Virus record (IMG/VR): IMGVR_UViG_3300008012_000104
Span: 1-30,497 of that record
Origin: a virus
Length of the DNA: 30,497 nucleotides
Strand: one strand, 5' to 3'
The translations under genes and the position numbers were made by a program. The first letter of the stretch is position 1. Each line of letters opens with the position of its first letter. Below, piece by piece: positions 1,420 to 19,976 of the stretch. The notes under the pieces were generated by a model that was not told the DNA's origin, ran no database searches, and saw only the letters and a program-made list of their open reading frames with translations.

Positions 1420-2416
1420 CTGGTAACACTAGGTTTTGTACAAGCCCCATCTGAGTCTCCATAGAGTTACCCCAGTTGTTGCGGCTCATGTGAAATGCAA
1501 TACGGTCGAGTAGTGCTTCGTATTCAAGGACACCCTGACGCAGATAGCTTTCGTCAATCTTGAATGCTTCTGCTGGATACTCTTTGTTGGTTTGCACTGC
1601 GACGATGTAGCAATCCGTTACTTGATAGTCCGGGTATGCAGTCTGCAAACACATGCGATACCAAGCTAGCTGCCGGTAGTAGCGATAGATAGCGAGAGTC
1701 TCTTCGAAGCGTCCCAAAGGTTTTGCTGTCGTCTTAAGATCGACCAGCGTGATTGTCTTCTCCTTATGATTCATAAGGATGCGGTCAATCTTAGCCTTGA
1801 TAGGGATTGTAACCTCCATCTCATTCTCAGCTTCCCAAGGCAAGTCAAAGGTAATCTCTGTCTCTGCCATGGCTTCATCGGCATGACCAAACCCATCTTT
1901 GCAGATGAGTTGGTCTGCCACTTCATTGAGCTTGATAGACTCGATACAGCCTTGAACGATATGGTAGGTAGCGGGGTCAACAATCTTCTTGCCTTGGGTG
2001 CTGTACAGGGCTTTCCAATACATCCCACCCTCACGGACAACTCTATTGATCTTAGTCTGTAGAGTGTACTTCGGGTAAAAGTCTGCAGGAATAACTGCTT
2101 CCCACGTCTCAGGAGACAGTGAGTCTAACTCCAGTTCAATAATGCCAGTCTCGTCTACGTTAGCATACAGCCTGTCCCAAAGAGCATCGATAATATCTTG
2201 TGTCTTTGGTCCGGGAGTATCTGAAGGTACGATGTCCAGCTTACCAGGCTCGAGCAGCTCTTCGTGAATCAGCGTTCCAATCTCAAAAGATTTGGAGGTG
2301 GTTTCATCTAGTTGACCATCGAGAAATTTCCGGAAGAGGCGGGGATTACCCCCGCTCTCCGGATTGATGTACGACAGTGAGCTGTTGCTTACAGCTTTGA
2401 TATCGAAGTAGTTCAT
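1400..2416 (-). CDS. PD-(D/E)XK nuclease, RecE/exonuclease VIII-like
   Basis: The N-terminus (KAVSNSSLSYI) followed by FEIGTLIHEELLEP near residues 44-57 is typical of RecE-type exonucleases, where the His is part of the core. Later IKAKIDRIL and TITLVDLKTT (about 205-230) give the D...DxK metal-binding core of the PD-(D/E)XK fold. A YRYYRQLAWYRMCL helix follows, matching the QLa.Y signature of the superfamily. The 338-residue size fits. It probably resects DNA ends for the phage recombination system, together with NinB, the RusA-like enzyme and the Sak4-like ATPase of the same operon. Start and the next gene's stop share ATGA. Confidence 0.85.
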   Translation of the reverse strand: MNYFDIKAVSNSSLSYINPESGGNPRLFRKFLDGQLDETTSKSFEIGTLIHEELLEPGKLDIVPSDTPGPKTQDIIDALWDRLYANVDETGIIELELDSLSPETWEAVIPADFYPKYTLQTKINRVVREGGMYWKALYSTQGKKIVDPATYHIVQGCIESIKLNEVADQLICKDGFGHADEAMAETEITFDLPWEAENEMEVTIPIKAKIDRILMNHKEKTITLVDLKTTAKPLGRFEETLAIYRYYRQLAWYRMCLQTAYPDYQVTDCYIVAVQTNKEYPAEAFKIDESYLRQGVLEYEALLDRIAFHMSRNNWGNSMETQMGLVQNLVLPDDPTNV

Positions 2417-3465
2417 GTAAATAAGCTCAGTTGTGCGTTGGTCATCTCCTTGTACTCCGCGTCAGTAAGATACTGCTCCGTAGTTAGGTTGAACCACATC
2501 TTCTCGTTCTCGTCCCATAGAAAGTCGTAGCCAAAGTCTGGACCATCAATCTCCTCGATTTCGTCAAAGATTGTAGGTCGGTACATGGTACGCCCTACAG
2601 GGGTACGGTAGTGTTCGAAGTCTTTATAGAACTGAACACCTTCGTAGTTAACGGTATCGTTGAAGTACAACCAAGCATTGACAGTCATACCGTTGTCCAA
2701 AGTAATGGGCACCTCTTTGCGAGTGTACCATTCTGGGTGACGTTCCAAATCATCCAGGCGTAGGATGGTCTCATCATCAACAGCGTACACTTCTACTGCA
2801 ATGTTGTGCCCATCTTGACGAACTTCCGATCCGACATACGGGATGCCTTCACAGACCATAGCGTATTGGTCTACTGTGTTACCAGCTCCAAGAAGACCGG
2901 CAGACTGCAGCAGGCCGTGGTTGCCAAAGCCTTTTCGCAAAGTGCCGTACACTGCAACGAGATGAGGTTTGTCTAGCACATTAGGCTTGCTGTAGAATAC
3001 GCCGTCTCTTTCGTGCCAGTTTCCTACACGATTGACGTACCACTTACCAGCTTTAGATTCACGAGTGTACACGAACCGGCTGTCAGTAAGAGAAAGAATA
3101 TCCTTCCATGATTGCCACGGAGTCTTACGCAAAGTCTCTGCGACAAAGCGTGTGTCAGACTTTTTGGTATCCCATGTATGAGGAGTTGCTACAGTTCCGT
3201 TGTGGAAGAGCCAGTTGTGTTCGTTGACTCGAACTGGGTGAGTATTCTCCAGGTTGGTTTCACCGACTGTAGTCAGGCGAGCGTGGAAAATGTATGGACG
3301 CTCAGACTGTAGCCAGTCCTGAGCTTCACGGATGTCCATGGTGCGGTATACGGTTCCGTCGTCTAGCGTTTGGATACCGAATCCGTGAGGGTTGTATGCA
3401 AGTGCTTGAGCTGCGATAGAGGGATCAAGCTTCCCGTGTTGCTTCTTGACTATAATCACACACAT
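2413..3465 (-). CDS. Class II glutamine amidotransferase fused to gamma-glutamylcyclotransferase-like domain
   Basis: The start is placed at the ATG at 3465-3463 because residue 2 is then cysteine (MCVIIVKK), as needed for the N-terminal nucleophile of class II amidotransferases. An earlier ATG would bury it. Residues 1-150 carry HARLTTV (61-67), HPV (76-78) and FHNG (87-90), matching the glutamine-site residues of that family. Residues 168-290 form a second domain with VYGTLRKGFGNHG (172-184), VEVYAVD and LDDLERHPEWYTRKEV, matching AIG2/GGCT-type cyclotransferases. The last 60 residues are acidic and unassigned. The start lies inside the upstream amidoligase gene (41-base overlap), so the two are coupled. 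Known families suggest release of ammonia from glutamine and opening or closing of a gamma-glutamyl amide; the target is unknown. Confidence 0.85.
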   Translation of the reverse strand: MCVIIVKKQHGKLDPSIAAQALAYNPHGFGIQTLDDGTVYRTMDIREAQDWLQSERPYIFHARLTTVGETNLENTHPVRVNEHNWLFHNGTVATPHTWDTKKSDTRFVAETLRKTPWQSWKDILSLTDSRFVYTRESKAGKWYVNRVGNWHERDGVFYSKPNVLDKPHLVAVYGTLRKGFGNHGLLQSAGLLGAGNTVDQYAMVCEGIPYVGSEVRQDGHNIAVEVYAVDDETILRLDDLERHPEWYTRKEVPITLDNGMTVNAWLYFNDTVNYEGVQFYKDFEHYRTPVGRTMYRPTIFDEIEEIDGPDFGYDFLWDENEKMWFNLTTEQYLTDAEYKEMTNAQLSLFT

Positions 3466-4378
3466 CGAGAGTGAGTTGTTGAGAGTTAGACTTAACAGTA
3501 GGGTTGGGCTGGACAATCATCTGGTTCCGTACCCCGGTTGGAATAAGGCGGTGCACCTTGCTGTAGGTGCTCCATTCAATACGCTGATCTTCGAATGCTT
3601 TGGCATACGCACTGGCTAGCATCACTTTCTCTCCGTACTTCTTACCGTACAGGTCGTAGATATGCTTACCGATACCGCCACCTATGTGCATTAGATCCTT
3701 GTAGATAGTATCGAACTTGAGGTCTTCATACTTGTCCGTTGTAAACAGAATCTGCAGGAGCTTGATGCGCCACTCCAATTGCTTGAGGTGTTTGATGCCG
3801 GCGAAGATGCGTATCTCCATACGCCCTGTACTACCTAGATTGATAGCATTGTATCTATCGTGGTAGTCACCCTTCTTGTAGAAACGAGCATACCCACGGC
3901 GCTTGGCACGCTTAGGATACAGAGCATACAGGAGAGGGATAATCTGAGCAGCCTTATCAGTGTACCATTGCTGGTCCTTACCTGATACAGAGATAGTGAT
4001 GTGTCCACCACAGCGATAGCTTGTGTCAGAGTGGATGAGGTAGTTCAAAACAGGGTTTGACAAATCAGTCAACCACTTGTTAGACTTGAGATTGTATACC
4101 GGGCTGATAAGCTCGAACCCATTATGCCCTAGTGAACCGTCACGTTCTGCTCTCCACTTATGAGGTAGCAGGTCTTCACGGTCTCCTTGATACCAGCATG
4201 CTACTGCACACCCCTCATGGTCTTCTTTCTCTGCCTCAATACCAAATCGATAAGTCGTATTAGTACCGCAATCCCACAGCGCACTCATGCTGTGGTATCC
4301 GTATAGCATACCGCGTGTATAGGGAGCGTCTTCTCTAAGTGCGTTGTACAGCTCCTGTCGGTTTACTTCGGTAGACAT
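3425..4378 (-). CDS. Putative amidoligase (COOH-NH2 ligase family)
   Basis: The 317-residue protein shows the motif series of glutamine-synthetase-like amidoligases (Amidoligase_2). FGIEAE is at 45-50, ERDGSLG at 78-84, GFELISPV at 87-94, CGGHITIS at 123-130, RYNAIN at 175-180 and RMEIRIF at 186-192. Such enzymes use ATP to join a carboxylate to an amine. The gene sits between a 69-residue protein and an amidotransferase-cyclotransferase fusion. That is the combination described computationally for phage and bacterial peptide or metabolite tailoring systems by the Aravind group. What it ligates (protein, cell wall, nucleobase or free metabolite) cannot be told from sequence. Confidence 0.85.
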   Translation of the reverse strand: MSTEVNRQELYNALREDAPYTRGMLYGYHSMSALWDCGTNTTYRFGIEAEKEDHEGCAVACWYQGDREDLLPHKWRAERDGSLGHNGFELISPVYNLKSNKWLTDLSNPVLNYLIHSDTSYRCGGHITISVSGKDQQWYTDKAAQIIPLLYALYPKRAKRRGYARFYKKGDYHDRYNAINLGSTGRMEIRIFAGIKHLKQLEWRIKLLQILFTTDKYEDLKFDTIYKDLMHIGGGIGKHIYDLYGKKYGEKVMLASAYAKAFEDQRIEWSTYSKVHRLIPTGVRNQMIVQPNPTVKSNSQQLTLDVCDYSQEATREA

Positions 4379-5030: not shown

Positions 5031-5617
5031 ACATAGAAGTACGTGTGCTTCCTTGTGTCTGATGTAATGGTAAAGACGAGCTTACGGTCTTCCTCGTTCT
5101 CGACGGGAAAGAACTCCATGCTCGCGGCTTTGCTAACGTACTTGATGTTGTCGTCGGGAATAATCTTCTCCTGGACAATCAAGTCTTGGAACACCTTAAG
5201 GTAGATCCACTTGTTATCTAAGTCCCAGTCAGCTTTACCGGGCACATCAAACATGGCACAGCTAATTTGAATTGGATACTTGTCTTTAGGAATCTTCCGA
5301 ACCTTCCTAAGGTAAGGGCGGAAAGCATCCTTGATTGCGTTGACAATCTTCACGCGCATGACTGGCCGGGTTGAACCAGCATAAAAGTCCTGCCCGTTAA
5401 TCTTCTTCATGCGGGGAGTATTTACACTCCGTGCATTACGGATAATCGGTTGACCATCGTTTGTGCAGAGGCGTCCCTTTCTATCGAAATGAAACGTAGG
5501 ATCTTGGTACTTCTTAGGAATACGATCCTTCTCTGTGTAGTAGGTTGGTCGTCGCCGGTTGCTCATCTTCACGTGGGTGATGAACTCTGGTACGATGACC
5601 GTTGCGATATGCGCCAT
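5027..5617 (-). CDS. rusA: RusA-like Holliday junction resolvase
   Basis: The core near residues 130-160 reads WDLDNKWIYLKVFQDLIVQE followed by KIIPDDNIKYV. This gives the acidic residues of RusA (D.DN..K....D.L.....i.DD). RusA enzymes cut four-way junctions and branched DNA before packaging. At 196 residues it is longer than typical RusA (about 120), mainly because of a basic N-terminal extension (NRRRPTYYTEKDRIPKKYQ). The chosen ATG at 5617 overlaps the primase gene by 104 bases. An internal ATG at 5566-5564 would reduce this to 53 bases and cannot be excluded. Confidence 0.8.
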   Translation of the reverse strand: MAHIATVIVPEFITHVKMSNRRRPTYYTEKDRIPKKYQDPTFHFDRKGRLCTNDGQPIIRNARSVNTPRMKKINGQDFYAGSTRPVMRVKIVNAIKDAFRPYLRKVRKIPKDKYPIQISCAMFDVPGKADWDLDNKWIYLKVFQDLIVQEKIIPDDNIKYVSKAASMEFFPVENEEDRKLVFTITSDTRKHTYFYV

Positions 5618-17106: not shown

Positions 17107-17415
17107 ATGGCACGAAATAGTCTCGCTGGTAAGGGCCGCGTCTATAAGAAGCGCGGGATGACAAAAGCGTCAATTGAACGTAAGCGGAAATATGATGCGG
17201 AGTATCAGAAGAAACGATCGGCTGTAAAGAAGCGCGTTCAGGCTAACAGAGCTAACCGACGCGCTGGTACTTATGGCAATGGTGATGGCAAGGATGCCAG
17301 CCATAAGAAGAACGGGAAGATTGTAATGGAATCACAATCAAAGAACCGTGCTCGTAATGGTATGAAGAAGGGACGTAAGCCCTCTGCAAAGCGTAGAAAT
17401 ACGCGTAAAAAGTAA
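17107..17415 (+). CDS. Highly basic 102-residue protein, HNH-like remnant
   Basis: The sequence is lysine/arginine-rich throughout (KGRVYKKRGMTKASIERKRK, then YDAEYQKKRSAVKKRVQANR). A later DGKDASHKKNG and NRARNGMKKGRKP follow. The order RK.YD.EYqk, R..NR..R, DG.D..Hk.nG, NR recalls phage HNH-adjacent proteins whose DVdHk.g....N...NR core binds metal; here only one His is kept and catalysis is doubtful. It is the only plus-strand gene among minus-strand ones and has its own terminator. It may be a DNA-binding or packaged structural protein. I am sure of the gene, not of its role. Confidence 0.8.
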   Translation: MARNSLAGKGRVYKKRGMTKASIERKRKYDAEYQKKRSAVKKRVQANRANRRAGTYGNGDGKDASHKKNGKIVMESQSKNRARNGMKKGRKPSAKRRNTRKK

Positions 17416-17629: not shown

Positions 17630-17875
17630 TTAGTATCGAGGGTCCACTGCTGTGTCCCAATCGATACCTCTTTTAAATACCTCCACTGGTTCAGTCATGG
17701 TATAGTCATGAACCGGGAGTCTGTTAGCCTTCATGTGTAGACGAGCTTCTCGTTGAGCTGCCCATCCTGTGTGGCTATAGAATGGAATGCGTGTCCCCTT
17801 CTCATTGTGAATGAGGACAACCTTCCATGTTTCTTTAGAAGCCCACTTGCCCGATGTCTTGGCATTGGCTCCCAT
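17630..17875 (-). CDS. 81-residue hypothetical protein
   Basis: The ATG at 17875-17873 is joined to the upstream TGA (TGATG), which fixes the start. The product begins MGANAKTSGKWASKETWKVV and continues with strands and a basic helix (GWAAQREARLHMKANR). No family recognised. It is the last gene of a three-gene coupled unit whose first gene starts at 18250. Confidence 0.65.
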   Translation of the reverse strand: MGANAKTSGKWASKETWKVVLIHNEKGTRIPFYSHTGWAAQREARLHMKANRLPVHDYTMTEPVEVFKRGIDWDTAVDPRY

Positions 17876-18132
17876 CACTTATCATGTTTCTGCTCGTATA
17901 GCCGGTCGGCTTTGGACATGAAGTCCTCTTCCTCATTGCTGATAGACAGGTCATGATCTTCGACAACGACACTCACGGGAAAGCCTTCAAGCTTAGCGGC
18001 TAGTCCTCGACGTAAGTCTGAGGTCAGAGAGTCAATGTCGGTAGCTTCTATGTCGTCACACTGTAGCGTGACTGTGAAGTATACCTCACCACTATAGGTA
18101 GGGTACACATCATTATCGTTCGGATTGCTCAT
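17875..18132 (-). CDS. 85-residue hypothetical protein
   Basis: The middle reads SGEVYFTVTLQCDDIEATDI and LTSDLRRGLAAKLEGFPVSV, a strand-helix-strand layout seen in small two-layer folds, with an acidic C-terminal helix. The ATG at 18132 lies inside the end of the 45-residue gene (20-base overlap). It is coupled to the following gene. I do not recognise it. Confidence 0.65.
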   Translation of the reverse strand: MSNPNDNDVYPTYSGEVYFTVTLQCDDIEATDIDSLTSDLRRGLAAKLEGFPVSVVVEDHDLSISNEEEDFMSKADRLYEQKHDK

Positions 18133-18250
18133 AGGTTATTTGAGTTACTTCTCCAGACATGTTGCGGTTGAATGCCACATCGACGCTGGGTGTACAGTAC
18201 TTCTGACCGTAGCGAGTGTAGAAGTACAAGGTGTACTGATTTAATTCCAT
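18113..18250 (-). CDS. 45-residue hypothetical protein
   Basis: A short frame from ATG at 18250-18248 to TAA at 18115-18113 encodes MELNQYTLYFYTRYGQKYCT and 25 more residues ending in TYEQSER. A promoter-like TAATTTTA box lies five bases before its ATG and a terminator hairpin just upstream of that. It overlaps the next gene by 20 bases. It opens the small unit 18250-17630. Function unknown. Confidence 0.6.
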   Translation of the reverse strand: MELNQYTLYFYTRYGQKYCTPSVDVAFNRNMSGEVTQITYEQSER

Positions 18251-18254
18251 GCTA

Positions 18255-18262
18255 TAAAATTA
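18255..18262 (-). promoter_or_regulatory. Start-proximal TAnnTTTG-like box
   Basis: The minus strand shows TAATTTTA-TAGC-ATGG. It differs from TAnnTTTG at one position and is followed by almost the same spacer and start context as TACTTTTG-TAGCA-ATGG ahead of the scaffold-like gene. It is directly downstream of a terminator, where a new promoter would be expected. Confidence 0.4.
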
Positions 18263-18269
18263 TGATAAA

Positions 18270-18294
18270 GGGGCCAGGCACGAAGCCCAGCCCC
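18270..18294 (-). terminator. Terminator hairpin
   Basis: On the minus strand GGGGCTGGGC pairs with GCCTGGCCCC around a TTCGT loop. All ten positions pair when the two T-G wobbles are counted, whereas the plus strand has an internal CA/CA mismatch. TTTATCATAATTTTAT follows. It lies 10 bases after the stop of the two-helix membrane protein, so it ends that transcript. Confidence 0.8.
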
Positions 18295-18304
18295 AATATC
18301 GCCC

Positions 18305-18670
18305 TTAACCACTGTAGTTGTCGCCAAAGACAGCTTTCCAGTAGGCATTTTCTGCATACACGCGCTTGCGGTATGCGATGTAGGAAGACACGGAACCCAC
18401 AGCAATACCAAGATCGAAACCTAAGTCAGCGATATGGTAGAGCACAGGAGATACCGTGCAAGCGTTAAGAAGGATGCCACCTAGGAAGAAACCTATGAGC
18501 ATCCCATAGAGACTGCGCTCTCTCACTTGAGTAGAGTACAGTGCATCGCTGAGTGTCATAATCTCAGCGCGTACAGCTTCAGCCTCCTCCTTAGTCATAG
18601 GTGGTAGGAGGTTGTTGTAGTTCAGCTTGCTGATTGGCAGCCGGTGATCGGGAGTACGGAACTTAGTCAT
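18305..18670 (-). CDS. Two-helix membrane protein, coupled to lipoprotein
   Basis: The start at the ATG 18670-18668 overlaps the lipoprotein stop by eight bases. Residues 1-45 are soluble and charged (TKEEAEAVRAEIMTLSDALY). Two hydrophobic helices follow, roughly residues 56-76 (YGMLIGFFLGGILLNACTV) and 84-100 (LGFDLGIAVGSVSSYIAY). A basic tail comes next, RKRVYAENAYWK. Total 121 residues. No family recognised. A charged helix plus membrane hairpin paired with a small lipoprotein could be a lysis pair or an envelope exclusion system; both are inference. Confidence 0.65.
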   Translation of the reverse strand: MTKFRTPDHRLPISKLNYNNLLPPMTKEEAEAVRAEIMTLSDALYSTQVRERSLYGMLIGFFLGGILLNACTVSPVLYHIADLGFDLGIAVGSVSSYIAYRKRVYAENAYWKAVFGDNYSG

Positions 18671-18821
18671 ATGCTGCGCAAACTGGGTGTTGTGAATTGC
18701 CAAACATCGGATTGTACGCAGAGGTATGCGACGATGTTGAACAGGAAGAGAGAAGCACGGTACACAGCGCCACAATAAAGAGGACGTATACCAGCATAAG
18801 AGAAGAGGAAGTGTTCTTCAT
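18663..18821 (-). CDS. Small lipoprotein (52 residues)
   Basis: The product starts MKNTSSSLMLVYVLFIVALC and continues TVLLSSCSTSSH. The hydrophobic stretch at residues 8-24 followed by LLSSC (Cys27) is a textbook lipobox, predicting cleavage by signal peptidase II and a mature chain of only 26 residues. It would be anchored in the envelope, with sorting in Bacteroidota depending on the residues after Cys (STSSH; no acidic surface-export signal seen). Its TAA lies inside the start of the two-helix membrane gene, so the two are a pair. Rz1-like outer spanins are similarly tiny lipoproteins, but proline enrichment is lacking. Confidence 0.7.
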   Translation of the reverse strand: MKNTSSSLMLVYVLFIVALCTVLLSSCSTSSHTSAYNPMFGNSQHPVCAAYD

Positions 18822-18844
18822 GGTAAAGGGGTTTTGGTAAAGGG

Positions 18845-19003
18845 TTAAAAGGTTTCGTCTAGGACTATGCCCATCGACAGGAGTTCTTGTTGAGTGAAGT
18901 CATAGACATTGCCTACAATCTTCTCGATGTATTGTCCCTCCTCAGCACACCACGTACGAGACGTGATGGTGCCCAGGAAGTCATAGGAGTACTTGGTCGC
19001 CAT
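18845..19003 (-). CDS. 52-residue hypothetical protein
   Basis: I place the start at the ATG at 19003-19001 because it has the ACC-ATG context of neighbouring genes. Starts at 19048 (67 residues) and 19138 (97 residues) are possible, but the longest would read through the strong hairpin at 19069-19109. The product begins MATKYSYDFLGTITSRTWCA and ends MGIVLDETF, mixed strand/helix. No family recognised. A CT-rich tract lies upstream, at 19050-19066. Confidence 0.55.
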   Translation of the reverse strand: MATKYSYDFLGTITSRTWCAEEGQYIEKIVGNVYDFTQQELLSMGIVLDETF

Positions 19004-19068
19004 GGTATTGGATTGAAAAGTGAATCGCGGAATCATCTCATCTACCATATAGGAGAGAGAGAGAAGAG

Positions 19069-19109
19069 TATACTCCCACTCAAGCCTTGTAAGCCTGAAT
19101 GAGAGTATA
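19069..19109 (-). terminator. 17-pair hairpin inside the 3' end of a gene
   Basis: On the minus strand TATACTCTCATTCAGGC pairs with GCTTGAGTGGGAGTATA around the 7-base loop TTACAAG. All 17 positions pair: 14 Watson-Crick and three G-T. The hairpin covers the last nine codons and the TGA of the 86-residue gene and is followed by a pyrimidine tract, CTCTTCTCTCTCTCTCC. It is probably a terminator or a 3' stability element; there is no pure U-run. Confidence 0.65.
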
Positions 19110-19340
19110 CACGTAAGCCTTCTGTGAGATGTAGTCATTCATACAGTTAGTAGCACTGCATGCTTCCATCTCTGTACGAATCTCTTCGAGCTTGGTTAGT
19201 CGCTCAAGTTGAAAGGCACGTGACTTGACACACTCGGTAAGGTCACGATTGAAGTCAGCCTCACGAATGAAGGCGTCCTTGTCTGCAATGAGACATTGCT
19301 TAGTTGCAATGAGGTCATTTACGTAGTCTAATGTCCACAT
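19080..19340 (-). CDS. 86-residue helical hypothetical protein
   Basis: The product begins MWTLDYVNDLIATKQCLIAD and is helical and charged throughout (AFQLERLTKLEEIRTEMEAC), suggesting a coiled coil. Three cysteines besides the initial region could matter. The ATG has an upstream TTACC like other genes of this strip. Its 3' end is built into a long hairpin. No family recognised. Confidence 0.65.
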   Translation of the reverse strand: MWTLDYVNDLIATKQCLIADKDAFIREADFNRDLTECVKSRAFQLERLTKLEEIRTEMEACSATNCMNDYISQKAYVYTLIQAYKA

Positions 19341-19398
19341 GGTAAGAATGGTTGGATGAATGAAAAGGATTATAGTCTGTAGTACTGAGGTTAGGTAG

Positions 19399-19414
19399 CC
19401 CCTTAATCTGATAC
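19399..19414 (+). repeat. Inverted repeat, left copy
   Basis: CCCCTTAATCTGATAC on the plus strand matches 15 of 16 bases of the minus-strand sequence CCCCTTAATCTCATAC at 19852-19867. The two copies flank the 112-residue gene and its downstream hairpins in inverted orientation. The right copy is in the leader of that gene. Confidence 0.6.
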
Positions 19415-19419
19415 GAAAT

Positions 19420-19457
19420 AGCTACGCATGGACGCTGGTTAGCGCACACACGTAGCT
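19420..19457 (-). other. Strong hairpin, structured RNA or terminator
   Basis: The minus strand AGCTACGTGTGTGCGCT pairs with AGCGTCCATGCGTAGCT around an AACC loop; 16 of 17 positions pair if G-T wobbles are allowed. It lies 53 bases after the stop of the 112-residue gene and is followed by ATTTCGTATC. It may be a second terminator or part of an untranslated RNA. No coding sequence is visible between 19341 and 19509. Confidence 0.55.
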
Positions 19458-19486
19458 TACAGTCCGTTTTGATGATAGTGTATCCA

Positions 19487-19508
19487 AGTAAGGCCCTAAG
19501 GCCCCACT
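19487..19508 (-). terminator. Hairpin next to stop codon
   Basis: On the minus strand AGTGGGGCC, loop TTAG, GGCCTTACT forms nine pairs including two G-T. It begins two bases after the TAA of the 112-residue gene. A U-run is lacking, so termination would be weak; it may work together with the hairpin at 19420-19457. Confidence 0.5.
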
Positions 19509-19509
19509 C

Positions 19510-19848
19510 TTAGTCTCGCTTGAGTACGAGACCATAGAATACGTCGCCTTCTTTGGTGGTCCAAGGCTTGCCGGTTTCGCGGTCCGGCCATGGCACGACA
19601 TCAAAGTGGTGACCCGCAGGTGCACTAACGTCAAATTGTTGGTCACGTTTGAACGTTGGGTAATCGTCACCGGCATCTTGGCACTCGACCCATGTCTTGG
19701 TGCCCTTGGGAAGAGCCACGCCAAGGTGTTTGGCAGTATAGGCGTCGTCTACAAAGAGCAGACGTTCCTCAAGAGAATCTGGGGTTCGTACAGTTGCGGT
19801 GAGACCAGTGTCGGTCTTGCGGATGGGAAAGAGGGTAATGTCCTTCAC
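19510..19848 (-). CDS. 112-residue hypothetical protein
   Basis: I place the start at GTG 19848-19846, with ACC before it as in neighbouring genes; another GTG at 19902 would add 18 residues and no ATG exists. The sequence opens with KDITLFPIRKTDTGLTATVR and is rich in strands, then has GHHFDVVPWPDRETGKPW and ends YGLVLKRD. It is likely a small beta-rich protein. No family recognised. A G-rich divergent region lies upstream and paired hairpins downstream, so it is a single-gene unit. Confidence 0.6.
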   Translation of the reverse strand: MKDITLFPIRKTDTGLTATVRTPDSLEERLLFVDDAYTAKHLGVALPKGTKTWVECQDAGDDYPTFKRDQQFDVSAPAGHHFDVVPWPDRETGKPWTTKEGDVFYGLVLKRD

Positions 19849-19851
19849 GGT

Positions 19852-19867
19852 GTATGAGATTAAGGGG
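19852..19867 (-). repeat. Inverted repeat, right copy
   Basis: CCCCTTAATCTCATAC on the minus strand is the partner of the copy at 19399-19414, with one mismatch. It lies within the leader of the 112-residue gene, immediately before its start codon context ACC-GTG. Confidence 0.6.
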
Positions 19868-19976
19868 TTACTTGTGAGGAACGAGCAAGTCCCGTTCCAC
19901 ACGCCACCGGGGTGTTGTCTTGTGGGGGTAACACCGGGGAGGTATAGTGGGGGTGGTAAGCAAACTCATACTTCCC

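Follow-up and report, generated by a model that had tools for sequence, protein, structure and literature searches.

Phage-encoded exclusion proteins of the inner membrane include T4 Imm. P22 SieA and HK97 gp15 are small proteins of the same membrane that act from prophages (PMC10883804; this and the other papers cited here are drawn on for selected passages). The known exclusion lipoproteins are small as well and engage their receptors on the periplasmic side (PMC9586334, PMC12685063): T5 Llp has an internal disulphide between Cys11 and Cys58 (PMC9586334), and Rtp45 has a mass of about 6 kDa (PMC12685063). In two-component spanins, the i-spanin consists of an N-terminal transmembrane domain and a periplasmic domain of helices, and intermolecular disulphides have been proposed as a general feature (PMC6139136). 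For crAss-like phages, no paper on tiny lipoproteins of the kind described below was found by title or by the start of the abstract. The passages of the Crassvirales review that we drew on describe no exclusion mechanism, and the word 'superinfection' is absent from its main text (PMC10136315).

We analysed a viral DNA of 30,497 nucleotides (IMG/VR record IMGVR_UViG_3300008012_000104, positions 1 to 30,497), referred to as the window. Its major capsid protein matches Crass_capsid PF23898 in Pfam (E 1.8e-82; score 277.7 bits, cut-off 27), a match that identifies the window as part of a crAss-like phage (Crassvirales). Bacteroidota are the most likely host group, and the sample numbers point to marine or estuarine water. 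The genes for TerL (phrog_6681), portal (phrog_6547) and capsid, as matched in PHROGs, run rightward from 22024, and the leftward arm encodes a DNA polymerase, helicases, a primase and an exonuclease. Between both arms, near the head of the leftward one, a minus-strand stretch holds the genes for a tiny lipoprotein (LP) and a membrane protein (MP). They belong to the following strip:

17630..19902, minus strand: early-looking leftward strip with LP and MP (open reading frames, synteny)
19510-19902, minus strand: gA, open reading frame
19080-19340, minus strand: gB, open reading frame
18845-19003, minus strand: gC, open reading frame
18663..18821, minus strand: LP, 52 aa, ATG start (open reading frame, homologues, alignment, pN/pS, lipobox control)
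18663..18670, minus strand: 8-nt overlap of the LP stop and the MP start, ATGACTAA (sequence, overlap count)
18305..18670, minus strand: MP, 121 aa, ATG start, predicted inner-membrane helical hairpin, N-in/C-in (open reading frame, homologues, alignments, AlphaFold2, topology, pN/pS)
18113-18250, minus strand: gD, open reading frame
17875-18132, minus strand: gE, open reading frame
17630-17875, minus strand: gF, open reading frame

Most strip genes have no match in PHROGs or Pfam. Like the replication genes into which it leads, the strip is read leftward, away from the TerL, portal and major capsid genes; this layout bears out the first-pass annotation, which had put the pair in an early-looking region far from the virion genes. 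Expression in crAss001 and phi14:2 is early or middle for replication-side genes and late for TerL and structural genes (PMC10136315). From gene order, read against these expression classes, we infer that the LP/MP strip is expressed early. On the strand opposite to the strip, positions 17107-17415 (plus) encode a very basic protein of 102 aa that is 84-89% identical in L013, L018 and L060 and is the most conserved gene of the strip. Elsewhere in the window (2413-4378, minus), adjoining genes for a gamma-glutamyl cyclotransferase (phrog_2520, 8.2e-23) and an amidoligase (phrog_7469, 2e-7) form a possible peptide-modifying cassette.

An LLSSC lipobox and a mature part of 26 residues had been claimed for LP, and both can be read directly from its frame (18663-18821). 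A lysine-containing start and a long hydrophobic stretch lead to L-S-S-C at residues 24-27, with Cys27 as the lipid-bearing residue, and the mature part ends in HPVCAAYD. Across lineages this part measures 25-27 aa and contains one cysteine besides the lipidated one (7/7 lineages). Besides M1, the invariant residues of the six-sequence LP alignment (A1) are S26, C27, T33, H45, C48, A50 and Y51; the L060/L174 LP, which lies outside A1, keeps both cysteines, the alanine and the tyrosine but not H45 (SCPAY). In Bacteroidota, lipoproteins exposed at the surface have an acidic export signal (LES) following the cysteine, with K-(D/E)2 or Q-A-(D/E)2 in Capnocytophaga and SDDDD and SDDFE in Bacteroides and Flavobacterium (PMC5080379). 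Since positions +2 to +6 of LP contain no aspartate or glutamate in any of the seven lineages, LP is probably periplasm-facing rather than surface-exposed, most likely at the outer membrane.

To place the pair among related phages, we scanned TerL relatives, keeping the best 80 of 163 loci. By tblastn and HMM searches, LP and MP were found in the window type, also present without differences in four other contigs, and in six more lineages (L013/L014, L015, L018, L023, L024/L029 and L060/L174). Among the loci searched, they co-occur in all seven distinct lineages with the strip sequenced, with MP represented in L024/L029 by an N-terminal piece only, the contig ending inside the gene. To judge by contig limits, the remaining loci whose TerL is 87-100% identical stop short of the pair; where TerL identity is about 65-80%, neither LP nor MP gave a match near this level. 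Using the L023 LP, the L018 MP and the L060 MP as further queries yielded one new contig, L174. The first-pass annotation had named an unconserved lipobox, or non-coding frames in relatives, as grounds for abandoning the pair. In the relatives, the lipobox is kept in 7/7 lineages, and pS exceeds pN in 15/15 LP pairs and 15/15 MP pairs. In pairs with unsaturated dS, dN/dS is about 0.12-0.28 for LP (near 0.23, 0.12 and 0.28) and about 0.18-0.42 for MP (0.42 and 0.18). LP and MP are real, conserved coding genes. No isolate of the window clade was found, isolate phages gave no LP relative by tblastn up to E 10, and neither LP nor MP was seen in Flavobacterium phage Fpv3 (L114, L115). The one weak partial match of MP to an isolate phage, a Methanosarcina virus (E 0.7), was taken as chance. 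By sequence comparison, LP and MP now define two orphan families.

LP resembles T5 Llp and Rtp45 in that it is a small lipoprotein encoded by a phage, its predicted orientation is towards the periplasm, and its gene looks early (PMC9586334, PMC12685063). It differs from both in its much shorter mature part and in showing no detectable sequence similarity to them in the libraries searched. With its single extra cysteine, LP has no internal disulphide, in contrast to Llp; a dimer through this second cysteine is possible. Searches of PHROGs, Pfam, NCBIfam and PADLOC revealed no homology of LP or MP to any exclusion protein. Six proteins had no meaningful match among the PADLOC models, the one hit (E 0.027) covering residues 1-37 of the L018 LP. 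The EexN entry-exclusion lipoproteins (NF033894) are also tiny, and the L023 LP matches them weakly (E 0.0019); however, at 18.1 bits against a cut-off of 33, this match is confined to the signal peptide and lipobox region (residues 13-40), and the window LP has no match to NF033894.

The anatomy of LP fits superinfection exclusion. We read LP and MP as early envelope proteins that probably change the host envelope or keep out rival phages. Our best single guess, which we hold tentatively, is that LP acts in superinfection exclusion and MP separately or at DNA entry; the step from anatomy to function is inferential throughout. Processing by signal peptidase II and transport along the Lol pathway of the host would bring LP to the periplasmic side, most likely of the outer membrane. 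There, the short tail with its invariant second cysteine (the CxAY end) could contact an outer-membrane or entry component or, alternatively, make a disulphide-linked dimer. LP would thereby alter the entry of further phages, in the manner of T5 Llp and Rtp45, which work from the periplasmic side. MP would be an inner-membrane protein whose two ends and helical stalk lie in the cytoplasm, and it would act on its own or when DNA enters. Several points speak against exclusion: the lack of homology to exclusion proteins in the libraries searched, the much shorter mature LP and its missing internal disulphide, a timing read from gene order, the failure to find an isolate of the clade, and a predicted MP loop that would extend as far as LP only if LP remained at the inner membrane. 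In crAss-like phages, functions are lacking for many early genes; LP, tiny and easy to express, is a concrete candidate for the means by which they act on the envelope of Bacteroidota.

MP had been described as a membrane protein with a charged N-terminal helix and a hairpin, and the predicted structure agrees. AlphaFold2, run with a six-sequence alignment, models two 44-residue helices (27-70 and 75-118; mean pLDDT 83.7, pTM 0.70). In the window MP, the N-terminal part has 8 K/R and 7 D/E, the loop has no K/R, and the C-tail has 4 K/R. In six members the hydrophobic segments map to about 54-100; their loops span 3-9 residues with 0-1 K/R, and their C-tails have 4-7 K/R. By the positive-inside rule, the simplest prediction is N-in/C-in: a stalk of helices would lie in the cytosol, and there would be no periplasmic domain. 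The second hydrophobic segment is of moderate hydropathy (1.21-2.06), and the membrane assignment is therefore a prediction. Like P22 SieA and HK97 gp15 (PMC10883804), MP would be a small inner-membrane phage protein. In contrast to these two and to T4 Imm, it has a predicted long cytosolic helical stalk, and it has no sequence match to them in Pfam or PHROGs. SieA and gp15 are also prophage-borne, whereas no integrase was found in records of the window clade.

The topology of MP bears directly on an earlier proposal that the two genes are a lysis pair, with LP as o-spanin and MP as i-spanin or holin. As in Rz/Rz1 spanins, a lipoprotein and a membrane protein are encoded by overlapping genes, and LP has both a lipobox and an extra cysteine, which suits the disulphides proposed for spanins. 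The two-segment hairpin of MP also resembles class II holins, in which two transmembrane segments form an N-in/C-in hairpin. However, the predicted hairpin at about 54-100, with both termini inside and no periplasmic domain, means that MP as modelled cannot be an i-spanin. The mature LP of the window contains two isolated prolines and no proline-rich tract, which argues against an o-spanin. Six MP members gave no match to a named holin family at E <= 1, nor did MP in Pfam at E <= 0.1; no lysis-family match was obtained for LP or MP. The late module of relatives encodes a separate 148-aa protein that matches holin phrog_3427 at 4e-17 (GTA_holin_3TM is below its cut-off, E 0.0046) and sits one short gene behind a DUF5675 gene. 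Of three records searched, two contain this holin alongside the pair or its start: G004, whose sequence begins within MP, and G315 (76.9 kb), with the L174 pair; the third, G003, is a 57-kb fragment and gave no match. DUF5675 was found in 6/8 records, including G001 and G002, in which TerL shares 99-100% identity with that of the window. Crassvirales lysins and spanins are late genes (PMC10136315), whereas the LP/MP pair is early-looking. Of the spanin hallmarks, the pair shows the o-spanin lipobox and lacks, as predicted, the N-terminal transmembrane domain with periplasmic domain of an i-spanin, as well as the late location. MP topology, the late holin and DUF5675 genes of relatives and the late timing of lysis genes in the review together make a lysis function very improbable, and the proposal is set aside. 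In the G004 late module, a 712-aa protein (L106:14692-16830) with a hydrophobic N-terminus carries the type IX secretion sorting domain Por_Secre_tail (1.2e-7) and is possibly exported by the host type IX system.

The placement of conserved residues in MP raises a different alternative, namely that LP and MP are early host-takeover or membrane-organising proteins and not exclusion factors. MP would then anchor a phage replication or transcription complex at the inner membrane, or block a host cytoplasmic factor there, via its cytosolic helices, and LP would adjust periplasm or outer-membrane homeostasis. In line with this, the invariant positions of MP fall mostly outside the membrane core (K15, A30, R34, L44, E51 and R52; R103, Y110, G116 and Y119), and the predicted topology leaves about half of each long helix in the cytosol. 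The run of the strip into replication genes is likewise consistent with such a role, as is the finding that other small, unrelated transmembrane proteins fill the corresponding strip in wider relatives. On the other hand, no DNA-binding, polymerase-binding or other domain was found in MP, and comparison of its model returned generic helical hairpins only: there was no fold match at E <= 0.001 in BFVD or PDB, and VIA-align Z scores reached 9.5 against unrelated helical hairpins, where about 13 is advised for helical bundles. We hold this takeover role about as tentatively as exclusion and rank it second, close behind. Even if LP only adjusts the envelope, the lysis reading is removed and two orphan families are defined.

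Whether for exclusion or otherwise, LP and MP could in principle form a true two-part system, one complex across the envelope. The first-pass annotation had coupled the two genes, and the LP frame does end inside the MP start, with the 8-nt overlap at 18663..18670. Direct overlap recurs in L018 and L060/L174 (4 nt each), and this, together with co-occurrence in 7/7 lineages, lends weak support to a joint unit. Overlap is, however, the norm in the left arm: in a gene list chosen by hand from the open reading frames, 21/31 adjacent pairs overlap, 14 of them by 1-20 nt. The LP/MP overlap therefore has no special weight, and we rejected translational coupling as special evidence. The two genes are also separable in relatives, by a gap of 73 nt in L023 and by a soluble gene of 90 or 88 aa in L013/L014 and L015, and the neighbours gB, gE and gF are conserved in most LP/MP loci too. 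Between the window and L013, LP is 71% identical and MP 36-37%, which indicates that they are not evolving in step, and the predicted MP offers no periplasmic surface for a partner. Their union in a single two-part system appears doubtful.

The exclusion reading gains a wider setting from the early strips of related phages. We applied one fixed lipobox filter to 36 loci, covering 177,207 bp between the strip and a point 1.5 kb short of TerL. It retrieved 16 tiny lipobox open reading frames on the coding strand (15 loci) and none on the opposite strand; the loci include near-duplicates, and the 16 frames are not 16 independent families. Late DNA of the filter loci (258,582 bp, both strands) gave one such frame. 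The filter misses some likely lipoproteins, for example a 93-aa one in L060/L174. Beyond the LP family, about three other small lipobox families were found, each with a further cysteine (L048/L050, L050/L052 and L078), in early strips of marine crAss-like relatives:

L048:330-464: tiny cysteine-containing lipobox open reading frame (lipobox filter)
L050:3078-3206: tiny cysteine-containing lipobox open reading frame (lipobox filter)
L050:1009-1164: tiny cysteine-containing lipobox open reading frame (lipobox filter)
L052:598-753: tiny cysteine-containing lipobox open reading frame (lipobox filter)
L078:3062-3178: tiny cysteine-containing lipobox open reading frame (lipobox filter)

Early strips of wider relatives also contain small transmembrane proteins from unrelated families, and that of Flavobacterium phage Fpv3 encodes a 168-aa lipoprotein. 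Together with the lipobox counts, these proteins suggest that early strips of such phages tend to encode small exported proteins. It is conceivable, though improbable on present evidence, that marine crAss-like phages share a recurrent early 'envelope kit' of unrelated tiny periplasm-facing lipoproteins and small inner-membrane proteins. The LP family would be its CxAY-ended member, with a mature part near 26 aa and one invariant extra cysteine. If true, the kit would be an exclusion or entry-remodelling module of Crassvirales, with lipoproteins shorter than the Llp and Rtp45 types. The early strip of Fpv3 also contains an unannotated 58-aa open reading frame with two hydrophobic stretches (L114:27286-27462).

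Host genomes were searched for relatives of LP as well. Scanning host genome contigs with alignment A1 gave 37 pattern stretches and no relative. An LP HMM matched 143 of 299 Flavobacteriaceae genomes at E <= 0.05; among the matches listed, most were limited to signal peptide and lipobox positions, and the 10 match places inspected held no LP-like open reading frame with a C.AY end. One full-length match among those listed (G168) was rejected after its frames were read and gave no lipoprotein-like open reading frame. A chromosome contig of Zeaxanthinibacter sp. PT1 carries a TerL 63% identical to that of the window, within the following element:

G011:C1 ~907561-998656 (L116, L163-L168): crAss-like provirus of about 91 kb, Zeaxanthinibacter sp. 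PT1 (tRNA-Met, repeats, integrase, capsid)

The element has a tRNA-Met at one end and 50-bp direct repeats of the tRNA end (907589-907638 and 998607-998656). It encodes a Crass_capsid protein (2.7e-86), a family A DNA polymerase and, beside the right repeat, a tyrosine integrase (PF00589, 4e-14), and it appears to be an integrated crAss-like provirus. Its leftward early-looking strip encodes a 145-aa lipoprotein (L167:16078-16515) with C-S-K-E-E after the lipobox, which, unlike LP, fits the C-X-K-(D/E)2 surface-export rule (PMC5080379). Crass-like phages have been described as seemingly strictly lytic (PMC10136315); epsilon crAss-like prophage pieces (PMC11054128) and pig-gut crAss-like prophages (PMC12454387) have been reported. 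An integrase was found in one of the 16 phage records searched and in none of the window's own clade. The one record, G310 (that of L062), is a marine crAss-like relative and encodes the phage integrase at 5109-5597 (2.9e-14).
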